From an uncultured Caulobacterales bacterium (GTDB lineage Bacteria; Pseudomonadota; Alphaproteobacteria; Caulobacterales; Caulobacteraceae), in contig CAINOV010000210.1 of the NCBI GenBank assembly GCA_903851655.1, forward strand, positions 1-33,198: a stretch of 33,198 nucleotides of DNA, given 5' to 3'. Below are positions 6,337 through 31,286 of this stretch, piece after piece. The position numbers and the translations under genes are program-made. Each line of letters starts with the position of its first letter. The stretch's first letter is position 1. The notes under the pieces are model-generated. The model did not search any database. It was given only the letters and a program-made list of their open reading frames with translations, and was not told the DNA's origin.

Positions 6337-6636
6337 ATGAGCGACGCAGTCGGCCCCGGCGATCTGGTGTTGTGCGTGAACGCCGCCCCGAACCATGTCA
6401 CGGGCCGGCCTGTCCCCCTGCGGGCGGGGGAGACCTATCGGGTGCTCTCGGTCTGGGACTATGCCTGCCCCTGCGGTCGGTCTGACGCCCTGCTGGACGT
6501 GGGCGTCGACTTCGGATGGTGCCAGTCGCGGTTCCGGCTCCTGCCCAAGCCCAAGGCCCAGGCCCGGCCGCAACAGGTCTCCGCGCCGAAGGAAAAGGAA
6601 AAGGAAAAGGAAAAGGAAAAGGAAACGACCCGCTGA
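6337..6636 (+). CDS. Small conserved-type protein with Lys-Glu repeat tail (99 aa)
   Basis: This is a 99-residue protein of unknown function. The first 70 residues resemble short beta-barrel (SH3-like) hypothetical proteins seen in alphaproteobacteria and their phages: a PGDLVLCVN opening, a GETYRVLSV strand, a CPCGRSD turn and an FRLLP end. Three Cys (the CPC pair and a later WC) could bind metal, which is speculative. The tail is an alternating Lys-Glu stretch of six pairs encoded by AAGGAA hexamers, then TTR. The ATG at 6337 is chosen over the upstream track start because GAGGAA precedes it at good spacing and the family-like sequence begins there. It converges on the degenerate receiver gene. 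Confidence 0.75.
   Translation: MSDAVGPGDLVLCVNAAPNHVTGRPVPLRAGETYRVLSVWDYACPCGRSDALLDVGVDFGWCQSRFRLLPKPKAQARPQQVSAPKEKEKEKEKEKETTR
6590..6625 (+). repeat. GGAAAA hexanucleotide microsatellite inside a CDS
   Basis: Five perfect copies of GGAAAA (6591-6620), with partial copies at both ends, encode the Lys-Glu tail of the 99-residue protein. Copy-number change would lengthen or shorten the tail in steps of one Lys-Glu pair without shifting the frame. Confidence 0.9.
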
Positions 6637-23054: not shown

Positions 23055-24446
23055 TCAACATTCGATAACGTTGACTGCCAATCCGCCCATGGAGGTCTCC
23101 TTATACTGATCCTTCATGTCCTCCCCCGTGCGCTTCATGGTGGCGATGACCTTGTCGAGGCTGACGAAATGCTCGCCGTCGCCGACCAGGGCGAGGCGCG
23201 CGGCGTCGATGGCCTTGATGGCGCCCATGGCGTTGCGCTCGATGCACGGGATCTGGACCAGTCCGCCGATCGGGTCGCAGGTCAGACCCAGATTGTGCTC
23301 CATGGCGATCTCGGCGGCGTTCTCGATCTGGGCGTTGCTGGCGCCCATGGCCGCAGCAAACCCCGCCGCCGCCATGGAGCAGGCCACCCCGACCTCCCCC
23401 TGGCATCCGACCTCTGCGCCGGATATGGACGCGTTCCGCTTGTAGAGCGCGCCCACGGCGCCGGCGGTCAGCAGGAAGCGGCGCCGCGCCTCCGGGCCGC
23501 CCCGGTGGAAGCGGTCGAAGTAGCGCAGCACCGCCGGCACGATCCCCGCCGCGCCATTGGTGGGCGCGGTGACCACCCGGCCGCCGGCCGCGTTCTCCTC
23601 GTTGACCGCCAGCGCCCAGAGATTGATCCAGTCCATGGCGATCAGCGGGTCGGAGATGTGCTGTTCGGCCCGGGACTTCAGGTCCTCATAGATGCCCCGC
23701 GCCCGCCGTCGCACGTTCAGTCCGCCGGGAAGCACGCCGCTCTGCCGGATGCCCCGCTCGATGCAGCCGTCCATCGCCTCGAAGATCAGGTCGAGACCGG
23801 CCTCGACCTCCGCCGCCGGGCGCAGCGCCGCCTCATTGGCCATCATCAGGTCGGCGATGGTCAGACCGGCGGCGTCCGCCATGGCCAGCAGCTCGGCGGC
23901 GGACGTGAACGGGTAAGGGACCACCGCCGCGTCACCCTCCGGCGCGTTGGCCTCCATCTGCCGGTCATCGGCGACGAAGCCCCCGCCGAGGGAATAGAAG
24001 ATCCGCTCCACCAGCCCGTCGCCGTCGCCCACGGTCACGCGGAACCGCAGGGCGTTGGGGTGGCGCGGCAGCCGGGTCATTCCCTCCCACAACAGGTCCG
24101 TGGCCTCGTCGAAGGCCGTGACCGGGCCCACATGTCCGCCGGCCGCGCCCAGGGGCAAGCGCCCGGTCGCGCGCAGGTCCGCCAGGGCTGCATCGGCGAT
24201 GTCGGCGTCCAGCGTCGCCGGCAGAAACCCCAGCAGGCCCAGCAGCACCGCCCGGTCCGTGGCGTGCCCCCGGCCGGTCAGGGCGAGGGAGCCATAGAGC
24301 GTGACCTCCACCCGCGAGACCCGCGCCAGCTGTTCCGCCTCGGCCAGTTCCGCCAGCAGGCGCCCGGCTGCGGTCATGGGCCCCATGGTGTGCGAACTTG
24401 ACGGTCCGACGCCCAGCTTGAACAGGTCGAAGACACTGGTGGTCAT
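23055..24446 (-). CDS. sdaA: L-serine ammonia-lyase (iron-sulfur type)
   Basis: This 463-residue enzyme deaminates L-serine to pyruvate and ammonia in the cytoplasm. It is a single-chain iron-sulfur serine dehydratase. The N-terminal beta domain carries [11 protein letters not shown] (14-24) and the alpha domain follows from about 190. The three Cys that hold the [4Fe-4S] cluster are C348 ([11 protein letters not shown]), C390 ([10 protein letters not shown]) and C401 (IPCIERNAM), and APTNGAAGI is also conserved. The C-terminus ending in Cys is typical. The ATG at 24446 follows GAGGAG, rather than the track start at 24509. It is divergent from an XRE-cupin regulator with a shared operator-like inverted repeat between them. 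With kbl-tdh and glycine-to-serine conversion it would complete threonine breakdown to pyruvate. Confidence 0.96.
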
Positions 24447-24509
24447 GGACACTCCTCGCCGCACAGGGCGGTCGCTCGCAGGGACAAGGCTTAGCTGGAG
24501 ATTCCACAA

Positions 24510-24527
24510 ATTCCAATATACAGGAAT
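24510..24527. promoter_or_regulatory. Putative operator ATTCC-N8-GGAAT between sdaA and the XRE regulator
   Basis: ATTCC-AATATACA-GGAAT is a perfect five-base inverted repeat with an eight-base spacer, and an extra ATTCC lies at 24501-24505. It stands in the divergent region of sdaA and the regulator. The same half-site spacing recurs before kbl, and TATATTGGA is shared by both regions. Binding by the XRE-cupin protein is inferred. Confidence 0.5.
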
Positions 24528-24565
24528 ATTCAGCCCGACGCGTTCCGCCGCCAGGACCCTTGCGC

Positions 24566-25132
24566 ATGACCGACGAAGCGCCCCTCCTCGGGCCCCACAT
24601 CCAGCAGCTGCGCAAGCGTCGGCGCCTGACCCTCGAGCAACTGGCCTCGCTCAGCGGCGTTTCGCGCTCGATGCTGAGCCAGATCGAACGCAGCCAGGCC
24701 AATCCCACCTTCGCCACCCTCTGGAACCTGACCAAGGCGCTGAGCGTGGACATCAGCGAACTGGTGGGCGGGCGGGCCAATACGCCCCCCGCCGCCCCGG
24801 CGATCGATGTGGTCGGCGGTCACTTCGTCCCGGAAATCCGGTCGGAAGACGGCTTGTGCACCCTGCGGATCCTCAGCCCGGCCCAGTCGGTGGGACGCAC
24901 GGAATGGTATGAAATCCTGCTGGAGCCAAATGGCGCCCTGGTGTCGGCCCCGCACGCCGCCGGGGCGATGGAGCATGTCACCGTGATCGAGGGCGAGCTC
25001 GAGGTCGTCTCGGGCGCCACCGTCGCCCGGGCGCCGGCCCACGGCGTCGCCCGCTATCCGGCGGACGTGCCCCACGCCCTGCGCAACCTCTCCCCGGGCC
25101 GCACCCGGGCGTTTCTCGTCGTCGCCAACTGA
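24566..25132 (+). CDS. XRE-cupin transcriptional regulator
   Basis: This is a 188-residue regulator. An N-terminal XRE/Cro helix-turn-helix (about 8-66: LRKRRRLTLEQLASLSGVSRSMLSQIERSQANPT) is followed by a C-terminal cupin (about 105-185: EHVTVIEGELEV to YPADVPHALRN) expected to sense a small ligand. Members of this class often control amino-acid or polyamine use. The ATG at 24566 has AGGA ten bases upstream; the track's TTG at 24560 is too close to it. It is transcribed away from sdaA and is followed by kbl-tdh on the same strand after about 100 bases. It is the likely local regulator of both, with serine, threonine or glycine as the possible signal. Confidence 0.92.
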   Translation: MTDEAPLLGPHIQQLRKRRRLTLEQLASLSGVSRSMLSQIERSQANPTFATLWNLTKALSVDISELVGGRANTPPAAPAIDVVGGHFVPEIRSEDGLCTLRILSPAQSVGRTEWYEILLEPNGALVSAPHAAGAMEHVTVIEGELEVVSGATVARAPAHGVARYPADVPHALRNLSPGRTRAFLVVAN

Positions 25133-25168
25133 TCGGAGCGCCGCCTTCGGTGCGGCGATGGGCGGAAA

Positions 25169-25206
25169 ATTCCTAGATATCGGACGCCTGATCCGCTATA
25201 TTGGAT
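25169..25206. promoter_or_regulatory. Two tandem operator-like sites before kbl
   Basis: ATTCC-TAGATATC-GGA (25169-25184) and ATCC-GCTATATT-GGAT (25191-25206) share the TCC-N8-GGA layout of the sdaA/regulator site. Their centres are 21 bases apart, two helical turns, so dimers could bind cooperatively. They precede the kbl ATG by about 30 bases and may overlap its promoter. Confidence 0.5.
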
Positions 25207-25234
25207 TATCCCGTTCGAGCCCGGATGATCCGCG

Positions 25235-26449
25235 ATGCCCAGCCAGTTCTATTCCGATGTCGCCACCCAGCTGCGGGACATCGACGACCAGGGCCTGACC
25301 AAGCCCGAGCGGGTGATCCTGTCCCGCCAGGGGGCGGAGATCACGGTGCGCGCCGGGGACGGCCGCGCGGTCCCGGCCCTGAACTTCTGCGCCAACAACT
25401 ATCTGGGCCTGGCCGGCGACCCCAGGATCTCCGAGGCGGCGGAGCGGGCGAGCCGCGACTGGGGCGCGGGCCTGGCGTCGGTCCGGTTCATCTGCGGCAC
25501 GCAAGGGATCCACAAGACGCTGGAACAGGCCACCGCCGAGTGGCTGGGCTACGAGGACGCGATCCTGTTCGCCGCCTGCTTCGACGCCAACGGCGCCGTG
25601 TTCGAGCCCCTGTTCGGCGAAGGCGACGCCATCGTGTCCGACGCCCTGAACCACGCCTCGATCATCGACGGGGTGCGGCTGTCCAAGGCCCGCCGGTATC
25701 GCTACGCCGCCAATGACATGGCCGAGCTGGAGGCCCAGCTGACCGCCGCCCGGGCCGAGGGCGCCCGCAACATCATCATCGCCACCGACGGCGTCTTTTC
25801 CATGGACGGCCACATCGCCAACCTGCCGGAGCTGACCCGACTGGCCGACCGGTTCGAAGCCCTGGTCATGGTCGACGACTGCCACGCCACCGGCCATATC
25901 GGCCCCGGCGGCCGCGGGACCGGCGCCTACCATGGCGTGGAGGGTCGGATCGACATCCTCACCGGCACCTATGGCAAGACCCTCGGCGGCGCCATGGGCG
26001 GCTTCATCGCCGCTCGCCGGGAGGTGATCGACCTGCTGCGCCAGCGCGCCCGCCCCTACCTGTTCTCCAACGCCCTGGCCCCGTCCGTCTGCGGCGCAGC
26101 CCTGGCCGCCATCGAGATCGCCCGGTCCGCGGAAGGCGACGCCCTGCGCCGGCGGCTGACGGACAACGCCGCGCGCTTCCGCACCGGCATGGCCGCCGCC
26201 GGGTTCGAGCTGAAGCCCGGCGAGACGCCGATCGTGCCGGTCATGCTGGGCGATGCGCGCCTCGCCCAGTCCATGGCGGCGCAGCTGCTGGACGAAGGGG
26301 TCTATGTCACCGGCTTCTCCTTCCCCGTCGTGCCCCGCGGGCAGGCGCGGATCCGGACCCAGCTGTCGGCGGCGCATACGCCGGACCAGATCGACCGGAC
26401 CATCGCCGCCTTCCAGCGGGTCCGCAGCCAGTTGGGAGACAAGGCATGA
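25235..26449 (+). CDS. kbl: Glycine C-acetyltransferase (2-amino-3-ketobutyrate CoA ligase)
   Basis: This is a 404-residue PLP enzyme of the alpha-oxoamine synthase family. It cleaves 2-amino-3-oxobutyrate with CoA to glycine and acetyl-CoA, the second step of threonine degradation. Seen: [13 protein letters not shown] (51-63), [16 protein letters not shown] (82-97), [12 protein letters not shown] (135-146), [12 protein letters not shown] (212-223) and the PLP lysine K248 in [14 protein letters not shown]. The length matches the family. The stop overlaps the tdh start by ATGA, so the two are translationally coupled. The ribosome-binding site is weak. Tandem operator-like repeats lie just upstream. 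Confidence 0.97.
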
Positions 26450-27483
26450 CCGAACCCATGCGCGGCCTGTCCAAGCTGAAGCCCGAGACCGGCATCTGGC
26501 GGGTCACGGCGCCCGTGCCGACCCCGGGGCCGGAGGACGTGCTGATCCGCGTCCGCCGCACAGCCATCTGCGGCACCGATGTGCACATCTACAAGTGGGA
26601 CGACTGGGCCGCGCGGACGATCCCGACGCCCATGATCGTCGGCCATGAGTTCTCCGGCGAGATCGTCGAGATCGGCGCCCGGGTCGACCGCCCCCTGCGC
26701 GTGGGCCAGCGCGTCTCCGGCGAAGGGCATATCGTCAACCTGCATTCCGCCGCCAGCCGGGCCGGCCGGTTCCACCTGGATCCGGAAACCCGGGGCGTGG
26801 GAGTCAATCGCCAGGGGGCGTTTGCGGACTATCTCTGCATCCCGGCCTTCAATGTGGTTCCCCTGCCGGAGGAGGTCAGCTTCGACGTGGGCGCCCTTCT
26901 CGATCCGTTCGGCAACGCCGTTCACACGGCCCAGCAGTTCGACCTGATGGGCGAGGACGTGCTGATCACCGGCGCCGGTCCGATCGGGGCGATGGCCGCC
27001 GCCGTCGCCCGGCGCGCAGGGGCCCGCAGCGTGGTCATCACCGACCAGAACGACCTGCGGCTGCAGATCGCCGCGCGCCTGGCGGACGTGCGCCCCGTGA
27101 ACATCCTCAAGGAGGACCTGCGGGACGTGATGGCCGAGCTGCGCATCGACAACGGCTTCGCCGTGGCTCTGGAGATGTCCGGCGCCCCGCCGGCGATCAA
27201 CCAGGCCATCGACGTGCTGGGCATGGGCGGCCGGATGGCGATGCTGGGCATTCCCCCGGGGGATGCGACGGTGAACTGGTCGGACATCATCATGAAGGCC
27301 CTGAAGATCCACGGGGTCTATGGCCGGGAGATGTTCGAGACCTGGCGCAAGATGTTCGGCCTGATCCGCGGCGGGCTGGATCTCGAGCCGCTGATCACTC
27401 ACCGTTTCCCGATGGAGGACTTCCAGCCGGGCTTTGACGCGGCGGTCTCCGGCCAGGCGGGCAAGGTCGTGCTGTCCTGGTAG
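26446..27483 (+). CDS. tdh: L-threonine 3-dehydrogenase
   Basis: This 345-residue NAD-dependent MDR enzyme oxidises L-threonine to 2-amino-3-oxobutyrate, the substrate of Kbl. The catalytic zinc site is present: C42 and T44/H47 in [11 protein letters not shown], and H67/E68 in VGHEFSGE. The Rossmann motif is [12 protein letters not shown]. The C-terminal half ([25 protein letters not shown]) matches TDH closely. Unusually, the four Cys of the structural zinc lobe found in E. coli TDH are missing: the segment after VSGEGH reads [17 protein letters not shown]. This is a zinc-lobe-less variant, which I recall from other Proteobacteria. It is coupled to kbl by four-base overlap. Confidence 0.96.
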
Positions 27484-27575: not shown

Positions 27576-29858
27576 ATGTCGTTGTCCACGTCCCTGTTTG
27601 CCGGCGTCGCCGCGGGCCTCATGCTCACGGCCGCCGCCGGCGCGTCCGCCGGGCCGATGATCGGCTTCACGCCCCAGGGCGCGGCCACGGAACAGGCGCT
27701 GGAGAGCCGGTTCGACCAGGCCCTCAGCGGCGAGGAGATGAAGGGCTGGCTGGAGACGATGTCGTCGGAGCCGAACCATGTGGGCTCCCCCCATGACAAG
27801 GCCAATGCCGAGCTGATGCTGGCCAAGTTCAAGTCCTGGGGCTGGGACGCCCGGATCGAGACCTTCGACATCCTCTATCCCACGCCGATTGCGGAAAAGC
27901 TGGAGCTGCTGGGGTCCCGTCCCTTCACCGCCGCCCTGCACGAAACCCCGGTGGAGGGGGACCGCACGTCGGGCAAGACCGCCACCGCCCTGCCACCCTA
28001 TGTGGCCTACCAGGGCGACGGCGACGTGACCGCCGACATCGTCTATGTGAACTACGGCATGCCCGAGGACTACAAGGCGCTGGAGCGCCTGGGCGTCTCG
28101 GTCAAGGGCAAGATCGTCCTCGCCCGCTACGGCGCCGGCTGGCGCGGCCTGAAGCCGCAGCTGGCCGAAGAACACGGCGCCGCAGGCTGCCTGATCTTCT
28201 CCGATCCCGCCGACGACGGCTACGCCACCGATGACGTCTGGCCCAAGGGCGGCCAGCGTCCGCCGCAGGGGGTGCAGCGCGGCTCGGTGCAGAAGATGAT
28301 GATCTATGCCGGCGACCCGCTGACGCCCGGCGTCGGCGCCACCAAGGACGCCAAGCGCCTGACCCGCGAGACGGCGCAGACCATCCTTCACATCCCCGCC
28401 CTGCCGATCTCCTACGCCGACGCCCAGCCGTTCCTCGAGGCCATGGGCGGCCCGCTGGCGCCGCGCAACTTCCGCGGGGCGCTGCCGATCACCTATCGGG
28501 TGGGCGGCGCCGGCGCGGCCTCGGCCCATCTGCTGGTCAAGTCCGACTGGAGCCTCAAGCCCATCTACGACGTGATCGCGGTGATGAAGGGCAAGGAGTA
28601 TCCCGACCAGTGGGTGGTCCGCGGCAACCACCATGACGGCTGGGTGTTCGGCGCCACCGATCCCCTGTCGGGCAATGTCGTGCTGATGGAGGAGGCCAAG
28701 GCCATCGGCGCCCTGGCCAGGACCGGCTGGCGGCCGAAGCGCACCCTGGTCTACGCCAGCTGGGACGCAGAGGAGCCGGGCCTGATCGGCTCCACCGAAT
28801 GGGCGGAGGCGCATGCGGACGAGCTGCAGAAGAAGGCCGTCGCCTACATCAATTCGGATTCCAATGACCGGGGCTATCTGGGCGCCGAAGGCAGCCACAG
28901 CCTCCAGACCCTGATGAACCAGGTCGCCGGCGACGTGCCCGACCCAGAGACCGGCGTGTCGGTGGCCCAGCGCCAGCGCGCCCTGGCGGAGGTCGAGGGC
29001 GCCCGCCCCGGCGCGCGGGAGGACGTCAAGCTCGTGGCCCGCATCGCCGCCGAGGGAGGCGAGCTTCCCCTGGCCCCCCTGGGGTCTGGATCCGACTACA
29101 GCGCCTTCATCCAGCACCTGGGGGTCGCCTCGATCAATCTCGGCTTCGGCGGCGAGGGCGAGATGGGCGGGGTCTATCACTCCATCTATGACAGCTATGA
29201 CCACTATCTGCGCTATGGCGACCCGACCTTCCGCTACGAGGTGGCGCTGGCCCAGACCGCCGGTCGCGTGATGTTGCGGCTGGCAGACGCCGACGCGCCG
29301 CCGATGCGGCTGCAACCGGTGTCCGCCGGCGTTGCGCACTACCTCAAGGAAGTGAAGCAACTCGTTGAAAAGACAAAGACGGAAGACGCCCAGCTGAGCG
29401 CCCTGATCGCGTCGAAGGCCTATAGCCTGGCCGACGACCCCACCCACCCGACGCAACCGCCGCAGGCGGAGGCGCCGGTCGTGGCGCTGGACTTTGCCGC
29501 CCTCGACGCCGCCAGCGAGCGCCTGTCCCGGGCGACCGCCGCGTTCGACACAGCCTATTCCGCTGCGCTGGGCCATCTGTCCCGCAAGCAGCAGGCGGCG
29601 CTGGAGCCGGTGATGTCCGGGCTGGAGCAGGCCCTGACCGCGCCGGAGGGCCTGCCCGGCCGGCCCTGGTTCCATCACATGATCTATGCGCCGGGCATGC
29701 TGACCGGCTATGGCGCCAAGACCCTGCCCGGCGTGCGGGAGGCCATCGAAAGCCGTCGCTGGTCCGAGGCCCAGACCTATATCGCGGTGGTCGCCCGGAC
29801 GCTGGACGGCTATTCCGACCGTCTCGAAAAGACCGTCGTCAGCCTCAAGGCGCAATAG
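27576..29858 (+). CDS. Exported M28 family metallopeptidase (glutamate carboxypeptidase II-like)
   Basis: This is a 760-residue secreted or periplasmic di-zinc peptidase with the domain layout of human glutamate carboxypeptidase II. The signal peptide spans 1-25 (ASA-G). A protease-associated domain (about 130-310: VYVNYGMPEDYKALERLG, KGKIVLARYG) precedes the M28 catalytic domain, and a transferrin-receptor-like dimerisation domain lies from about 620. Zinc ligands fit H352 (GNHHDGWVFG), D362, catalytic E399 and E400 (WDAEEPG), D428 (NSDSN) and a His in GVYHSIYDSYDHY. It should release C-terminal or N-terminal amino acids from peptides. It lies after tdh and before an amino-acid permease, suggesting peptide scavenging. 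The ATG has GGAG ten bases upstream. Confidence 0.95.
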   Translation: MSLSTSLFAGVAAGLMLTAAAGASAGPMIGFTPQGAATEQALESRFDQALSGEEMKGWLETMSSEPNHVGSPHDKANAELMLAKFKSWGWDARIETFDILYPTPIAEKLELLGSRPFTAALHETPVEGDRTSGKTATALPPYVAYQGDGDVTADIVYVNYGMPEDYKALERLGVSVKGKIVLARYGAGWRGLKPQLAEEHGAAGCLIFSDPADDGYATDDVWPKGGQRPPQGVQRGSVQKMMIYAGDPLTPGVGATKDAKRLTRETAQTILHIPALPISYADAQPFLEAMGGPLAPRNFRGALPITYRVGGAGAASAHLLVKSDWSLKPIYDVIAVMKGKEYPDQWVVRGNHHDGWVFGATDPLSGNVVLMEEAKAIGALARTGWRPKRTLVYASWDAEEPGLIGSTEWAEAHADELQKKAVAYINSDSNDRGYLGAEGSHSLQTLMNQVAGDVPDPETGVSVAQRQRALAEVEGARPGAREDVKLVARIAAEGGELPLAPLGSGSDYSAFIQHLGVASINLGFGGEGEMGGVYHSIYDSYDHYLRYGDPTFRYEVALAQTAGRVMLRLADADAPPMRLQPVSAGVAHYLKEVKQLVEKTKTEDAQLSALIASKAYSLADDPTHPTQPPQAEAPVVALDFAALDAASERLSRATAAFDTAYSAALGHLSRKQQAALEPVMSGLEQALTAPEGLPGRPWFHHMIYAPGMLTGYGAKTLPGVREAIESRRWSEAQTYIAVVARTLDGYSDRLEKTVVSLKAQ

Positions 29859-29909
29859 CCGCCCGCGGGCGATCATCTGCAATATTGGCGTCAGAAGGGG
29901 ATCAGACGC

Positions 29910-31286
29910 GTGACCACCGACCAGGCTGCCGGGACTGTCCAGGAACTGGGCAAGTCCCTGAAATCACGCCATGTGGCCATGATCTCCATCGGCGGGATCA
30001 TCGGCGCCGGGCTGTTTGTCGGCTCCAGCGCCGCCATTTCCAGCGTCGGGCCGGCCATCATTGTCAGCTACACCCTGGCGGGGCTGGTGGTGCTGATGGT
30101 CATGCGCATGCTGGGGGAGATGGCCGTCGCCTACCCCCATATCGGCTCGTTCACCGAGTTCGCGCGTCTGGGCCTGGGCAACTGGGCCGGCTTCACCAAT
30201 GGCTGGCTGTACTGGTACTTCTGGGCCATCGTCGCGGCCATCGAGGCCATAGCCGGCGCCAAGATCATCCACGACTGGGTCCCGGAACTGCCGATCTGGG
30301 TGATCGGCTGGGGCCTGCTGGCCATGATGACGGCCGTCAATCTGATGTCGACGGGCTCTTACGGCGAGTTCGAGTTCTGGTTCGCGTCCCTGAAGGTGGC
30401 GGCGATCATCGCCTTCATCCTGGTCGGCCTGGTGTTCGTCCTCGGGCATGATCCCGTGGCCCATGTCGCCAACCTGAGCCAGGACGGCGGTTTCGCCCCG
30501 TTCGGCGTCTCGGCGGTGCTGAGCGGCGTGGTGGCGGTGATCTTCGCCCTCTGCGGCGCAGAGATCGCCACCATCGCCGCGGCGGAAAGCCCGGAGCCCG
30601 CTCGCACCATCGCCAACATGACCGGCTCGGTCGTGGTCCGGATCCTGCTGTTCTACATCGGCTCGATCAGCCTCATCCTGATGGTCGTCCCCTGGCGGCA
30701 GATCCATTCCGGCGACAGCCCCTTCGCCGTGGCGCTGGAGACCATGAACGTGCCGGCGGCCGCCTTCGCCATGAAGATCGTGGTGCTGACCGCGGTCCTG
30801 TCCTGCCTGAACTCGGCGATCTATGTGTGCTCCCGGGTCATGTTCACCCTGTCGGCCCGGGGGGATGCGCCCAAGGCCCTGGTGAAGCTGAACGGGCGCA
30901 AGGTTCCCGCCCGCGCCATCCTGTTCTGCAGCCTGTTCGGCTATGTGGCGATCTTCGCCTCGGTGGTGTCGCCGGAAAAGGTGTTCGCCTTCCTGGTCAA
31001 CGCCTCGGGCGCCATCATGCTGGTGGTCTATCTGATCACGGCCCTGGCCCAGATCCGCCTGCGACGGCATCTGGAGCGCACGGCCCCCGACCGGCTGGGG
31101 GTCCGGGTGTGGCTGTTCCCGGCGGCCAGCTATGTCACCGTGGCCGCCATGGTCGCCGTAGTGATCGCCATGATCATCACGCCCGCCCGGGCAGTGGAGG
31201 CGTGGTCCAGCCTCGCCGTGGTGGCGGCGGTTCTCGCGCTCTACGCGGTGTTCCGCCTGGGACGGGGCGGAAAGGTGGAGATCTGA
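29910..31286 (+). CDS. APC-superfamily amino acid permease
   Basis: This is a 458-residue inner-membrane permease with about twelve transmembrane helices, of the amino acid transporter (GabP/CycA/AroP-like) branch. The TM1 motif ISIGGIIGAGLFVGSS is diagnostic, and EMAVAYPHIGSFTEFAR and CGAEIATIAAAESPEPAR are typical of this branch. The substrate is an amino acid or GABA-like compound; the context with serine and threonine catabolism suggests one of these or a peptidase product. The GTG start at 29910 has AAGGGG nine bases before. It follows the M28 peptidase by 51 bases and is probably in the same transcript. Only four bases separate its stop from the convergent cyclophilin. Confidence 0.93.
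   Translation: MTTDQAAGTVQELGKSLKSRHVAMISIGGIIGAGLFVGSSAAISSVGPAIIVSYTLAGLVVLMVMRMLGEMAVAYPHIGSFTEFARLGLGNWAGFTNGWLYWYFWAIVAAIEAIAGAKIIHDWVPELPIWVIGWGLLAMMTAVNLMSTGSYGEFEFWFASLKVAAIIAFILVGLVFVLGHDPVAHVANLSQDGGFAPFGVSAVLSGVVAVIFALCGAEIATIAAAESPEPARTIANMTGSVVVRILLFYIGSISLILMVVPWRQIHSGDSPFAVALETMNVPAAAFAMKIVVLTAVLSCLNSAIYVCSRVMFTLSARGDAPKALVKLNGRKVPARAILFCSLFGYVAIFASVVSPEKVFAFLVNASGAIMLVVYLITALAQIRLRRHLERTAPDRLGVRVWLFPAASYVTVAAMVAVVIAMIITPARAVEAWSSLAVVAAVLALYAVFRLGRGGKVEI

Follow-up and report, generated by a model that had tools for sequence, protein, structure and literature searches.

We identify a 16-bp palindromic operator, WTCC-R-N-TATA-N-Y-GGAW, shared by an XRE-cupin regulator gene and the adjoining kbl-tdh genes of an uncultured Caulobacterales bacterium and its relatives. 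Sequence comparison across genomes gives good support to the motif, to its link with the regulator and to its association with kbl-tdh. The regulator is probably a local repressor of kbl-tdh and of its own gene, relieved by L-threonine or a product of it. All coordinates without a locus prefix refer to the 33,198-nucleotide stretch analysed here (the window).

The window contains the gene for single-chain L-serine ammonia-lyase, sdaA (23055-24446, minus strand; NCBIfam TIGR00720, 2.3e-191), the divergent XRE-cupin regulator gene (24566-25132, plus strand), kbl (25235-26449, plus strand; NCBIfam TIGR01822, 3.6e-175) and the L-threonine 3-dehydrogenase gene tdh (26446-27483, plus strand; PRK05396, 4.6e-149), which overlaps kbl by 4 bp. 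The NCBIfam, Pfam and PRK models uphold these four identities, which had first been assigned from the letters alone (the sequence-only reading). The stretch 3' of tdh (27576-31286) encodes a peptidase of the M28 family, bearing PA and TFR-dimer domains, and a GABA-permease-like amino-acid permease. Both genes are kept in the nearest relatives (L026 and L027), and the stretch is possibly a peptide-to-amino-acid utilisation block.

The regulator gene (ATG at 24566, stop at 25132) encodes 188 amino acids and is single-copy in its genome. An N-terminal Cro/C1-type helix-turn-helix domain (HTH_3, PF01381, residues 12-66) is found above the Pfam cutoff (5.2e-14), and Cupin_2 (PF07883, residues 119-185; 3.1e-5) scores 24.0 bits, slightly under Pfam's cutoff of 27.2. 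A full-length profile match (E = 1.6e-32) to 1y9q, an HTH_3-family regulator and the nearest full-length solved relative, takes in both parts of the protein. None of the NCBIfam models reaches an equivalog score; the PuuR model gives 28.5 bits against a cutoff of 211, and the models assign no orthology to a named regulator (PuuR, SlrR, RamB and others). With its helix-turn-helix, C-terminal cupin, palindrome beside its own gene and small local regulon, the protein is a member of the XRE-cupin family.

Three sites of the form TCC-N8-GGA lie where the sequence-only reading had placed them. Site O1 (24510-24527, ATTCC-AATATACA-GGAAT; 16-bp core 24511-24526, TTCCAATATACAGGAA) is found in the divergent intergenic region between sdaA and the regulator, and sites O2 (25169-25184, ATTCC-TAGATATC-GGA; 16-bp operator 25170-25185, TTCCTAGATATCGGAC) and O3 (25191-25206, ATCC-GCTATATT-GGAT; ATCCGCTATATTGGAT) precede kbl, 21 bp apart from start to start. 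The sequence reported as common to both regions, TATATTGGA, is indeed present in O3 and on the reverse strand of O1. Scored with the refined matrix described below, O1 (21.7), O2 (13.3) and O3 (23.6) are the only sites in the window above 9, the next best reaching 8.9. O2 is weaker, with three mismatches to the consensus; O1 is kept within the genus among the relatives compared; and O3 matches WTCCRNTATANYGGAW exactly, as the sole exact match in its genome. The only other near match to the consensus in this genome (C386:7424, one mismatch) lies inside long overlapping ORFs with no clear intergenic region and is probably a chance occurrence.

We drew regulator orthologues from two sources, 299 genomes belonging to the order and a genome collection. 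First counts had been inflated by duplicates (L002 = L026, L003 = L029, L004 = L037, L005 = L055), and their removal left 43 distinct genomes with the regulator near kbl. We searched up to 250 bp before each gene for WTCC-N8-GGAW, counting one site for both genes where regulator and kbl are divergent. The strict motif precedes the regulator in 30/43 genomes and kbl in 23/43, compared with means of 0.9 and 1.0 (maximum 5) in dinucleotide shuffles; nine of the 43 have a strict site at neither gene. Among 26 representatives with regulator identity below 80%, a spacer of 8 accounts for 30 sites and every other spacer for two at most. The symmetrised matrix, [AT]TCC-R-N-T-A|T-A-N-Y-GGA[AT], carries ∼19 bits over 22 positions and was scored leaving out one locus at a time. 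A broader pattern, WTCCNNNATNNNGGAW, gave many matches per genome with a poorly matched control and was dropped.

Neighbour mapping finds the regulator beside kbl-tdh or close to it in Caulobacterales, Devosia, Kiloniella, Roseobacter relatives, Asticcacaulis, Parvularculaceae and Kordiimonas, and also in Hahella, Oxalobacteraceae, acidimicrobial MAGs and planctomycete MAGs. A single type of operator stands before the regulator gene and before kbl-tdh across the Alphaproteobacteria, and also in a few members of the Gammaproteobacteria, Betaproteobacteria, Acidimicrobiia and Planctomycetes. Where other genomes have tandem sites ahead of kbl, the spacings cluster at 16-21 bp. In the acidimicrobial MAGs (L061, L063, L065 and L073; Actinomycetota), the regulator-kbl-tdh block carries the operator before the regulator, and its occurrence there suggests either inter-phylum transfer or a binning error.

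From these conserved positions we infer a core regulon of kbl-tdh and the regulator's own gene. The sequence-only reading had gone further, with one regulator binding all three sites and controlling serine deamination and threonine cleavage together. The tie of the operator to the regulator stands before the regulator's own gene and kbl-tdh; the extension to sdaA narrows to particular lineages. A divergent sdaA sharing the operator is seen only in the close relatives of the window, and the unlinked sdaA genes of ∼20 regulator-bearing relatives have no strong site (best score 10.8, in two Devosia), so joint control is not general. For the same reason, the inclusion of sdaA could be a by-product of autoregulation. 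It is possible, if on the unlikely side, that the regulator acts on itself and kbl-tdh only, and that sdaA is a divergent neighbour with an independent promoter; the operator is also closer to the regulator ATG than to the sdaA ATG, and in L029 it lies 160 bp from sdaA. Against this stands a predicted promoter directed toward sdaA (24488-24516, minus strand), TTGGAA-17-TAAGCC, recognised by the spacing and hexamer kept in the genus, with TTGGAA forming half of O1. Five of six genus members keep the 17-bp gap and the TAAGCY hexamer, which ends 36-60 bp from the sdaA ATG. This arrangement would fit an sdaA promoter with its -35 element under the regulator. In two other lineages (L034 and L038), moreover, sdaA is found behind tdh in the same orientation. 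Lineage-specific control of sdaA is plausible, here predicted from the shared operator and the conserved promoter-like element.

A different gene takes the place of kbl in four genomes, where the regulator orthologue adjoins a threonine-aldolase-like β-eliminating lyase gene (PF01212; L030 6539-7690, L045 6558-7658, L054 6558-7643 and L059 6558-7706). L030 has the operator TTCCGATATAGTGGAC at 6557 (score 17.2), between regulator and lyase gene, and L045, L054 and L059 have a diverged, TTCCRSTATAACGAAC-like site before the regulator. The exchange of kbl for this lyase argues that the effector would belong to threonine metabolism, and the neighbourhood suggests that the sensed substrate is threonine. 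In the sphingomonads L036 and L050, the regulator is found away from kbl, and ORFs for TonB-dependent receptors (8686 and 8938, respectively) have operator-like sites upstream of them (L036 8369, score 15.3; L050 8457, score 13.7), which suggests a rewired regulon.

Before kbl, a sigma-70-like scan predicts a promoter, TAGATA-17-TATATT (25174-25202, plus strand), the only such match in 24380-25260 (shuffles, 0.0), with its -35 element inside O2 and its -10 element inside O3. Across loci, the operator overlaps the best -10 element in 12/28 cases before kbl and in 14/24 before the regulator, above the positional expectation; this overlap is partly circular, as the palindrome itself contains TAT, and lends weak support. 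From the sequence features described above we infer the following mechanism. A regulator dimer would bind the 16-bp palindrome; O2 and O3, two helical turns apart, would cover the -35 and -10 elements of kbl-tdh, and the single O1 between regulator and sdaA would serve autoregulation and, in the genus, overlap the predicted sdaA -35 element. Binding of threonine, or of one of its close products (glycine, aminoketobutyrate, aminoacetone, or serine), to the cupin domain would release the regulator from DNA, upon which threonine would be oxidised and cleaved to glycine and acetyl-CoA, and serine deaminated to pyruvate.

Ligand-relieved repression is the best reading of the sign of control, because the XRE-cupin repressors of Pseudomonas aeruginosa bind palindromes in the core promoter and the DbuR footprint bears a striking likeness to the operator described here. 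The P. aeruginosa proteins (PsdR, PauR, ErfA, PA1359, PA1884 and others) are local repressors with palindromes near or in the core promoter (PMC7901475). They resemble the regulator described here in domain make-up, in targets beside their own genes and in palindromic sites, but none has a reported target at kbl, tdh or sdaA, and the three consensus sequences reported for them are all different (PMC7901475); that of PsdR is TTAAG-N5-CTTAA (PMC10965056). DbuR of Pseudomonas putida, another XRE-cupin protein, likewise represses locally, acting on the amino-acid catabolic operon next to it, and its footprint holds a palindrome, AATTCTCATATATTAGAATT, over the predicted -10 element (PMC12724383). 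Its site TTCTCATATATTAGAA matches the operator here at 12-13 of 16 core positions, with half-sites TTCT/AGAA rather than TTCC/GGAA, and it differs in its target, D-branched-chain amino acid oxidation, and in having one site and one operon (PMC12724383). The sign is not certain, as shown by NceR, which is listed among XRE-cupin regulators (PMC12724383) yet activates ompA, with sites at the -35 element and upstream of it (PMC10470515). By this precedent the regulator could act as an activator, or in both ways, and recruit polymerase only with its ligand bound, and sites at the upstream promoter edge are compatible with activation. We consider this improbable, given that every XRE-cupin regulator studied in P. 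aeruginosa represses (PMC7901475) and that the sites here lie over the -35 and -10 elements, often within 20 bp of the regulator start codon.

Joint control of both pathways has precedent, since kbl, tdh and sdaA are all targets of Lrp in Escherichia coli (RegulonDB target list, PMC2374795). Like the arrangement proposed here, Lrp brings kbl-tdh and sdaA under one regulator, but it is a global factor of the unrelated Lrp family and is encoded away from the locus. It is conceivable that another, global factor binds the palindromes and that their linkage to the XRE-cupin gene is incidental, but we regard this as highly improbable in view of where the sites occur. We read 30 kbl loci of the window's own family: all seven with an adjoining regulator have a site (scores 7.7-24.7), whereas none of the 23 without the regulator does (best score 2.6). 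In 16 other genomes, at least eight exact matches to the consensus are found, in at least seven genomes, all of them, among the matches listed, at the regulator locus. The operator is absent before distant XRE-cupin paralogues, both in a separate clade of 17 (L008-L024, from another family of the order and with no adjoining kbl) and at the distant L025. In the window alone, WTCC-N8-GGAW occurs twice (2.3 expected) and TCC-N8-GGA 19 times (15.6 expected); the bare motif is no commoner than chance there, and its significance comes from the cross-genome comparison. That level is all that speaks for a chance pattern of AT-rich intergenic islands, an explanation refuted by the spacer spectrum, the shuffles, the paralogue control and the no-regulator control.

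The system appears, by well-supported comparison, to be a conventional type of local switch, of the sort represented by DbuR, PsdR and PauR, for which we found no description of its own in the open literature. In agreement with the sequence-only reading, which knew of no regulator for this arrangement, a search limited to the open literature, apart from most subscription journals and regulon databases such as RegPrecise, brought up no XRE-cupin protein acting on kbl-tdh or sdaA. We lean, by a modest degree, toward a broader view, in which such proteins form a widespread and undescribed group of threonine-catabolism repressors, from Alphaproteobacteria to Planctomycetes, that would sense threonine or a product as a local counterpart of Lrp and would in some lineages have been redirected to sdaA or a threonine-aldolase-like gene and, possibly, to an outer-membrane receptor in sphingomonads.

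Threonine is commonly broken down through kbl-tdh, and the sole regulator of that route that we met in the open literature is the global Lrp of E. coli. Our analysis supplies an operator, a regulator and a testable regulon for many marine and soil bacteria, and with them a candidate threonine-responsive switch. The regulon appears stepwise: kbl-tdh would form its core, some lineages may have added sdaA through gene order, and others may have substituted a threonine-aldolase-like gene.
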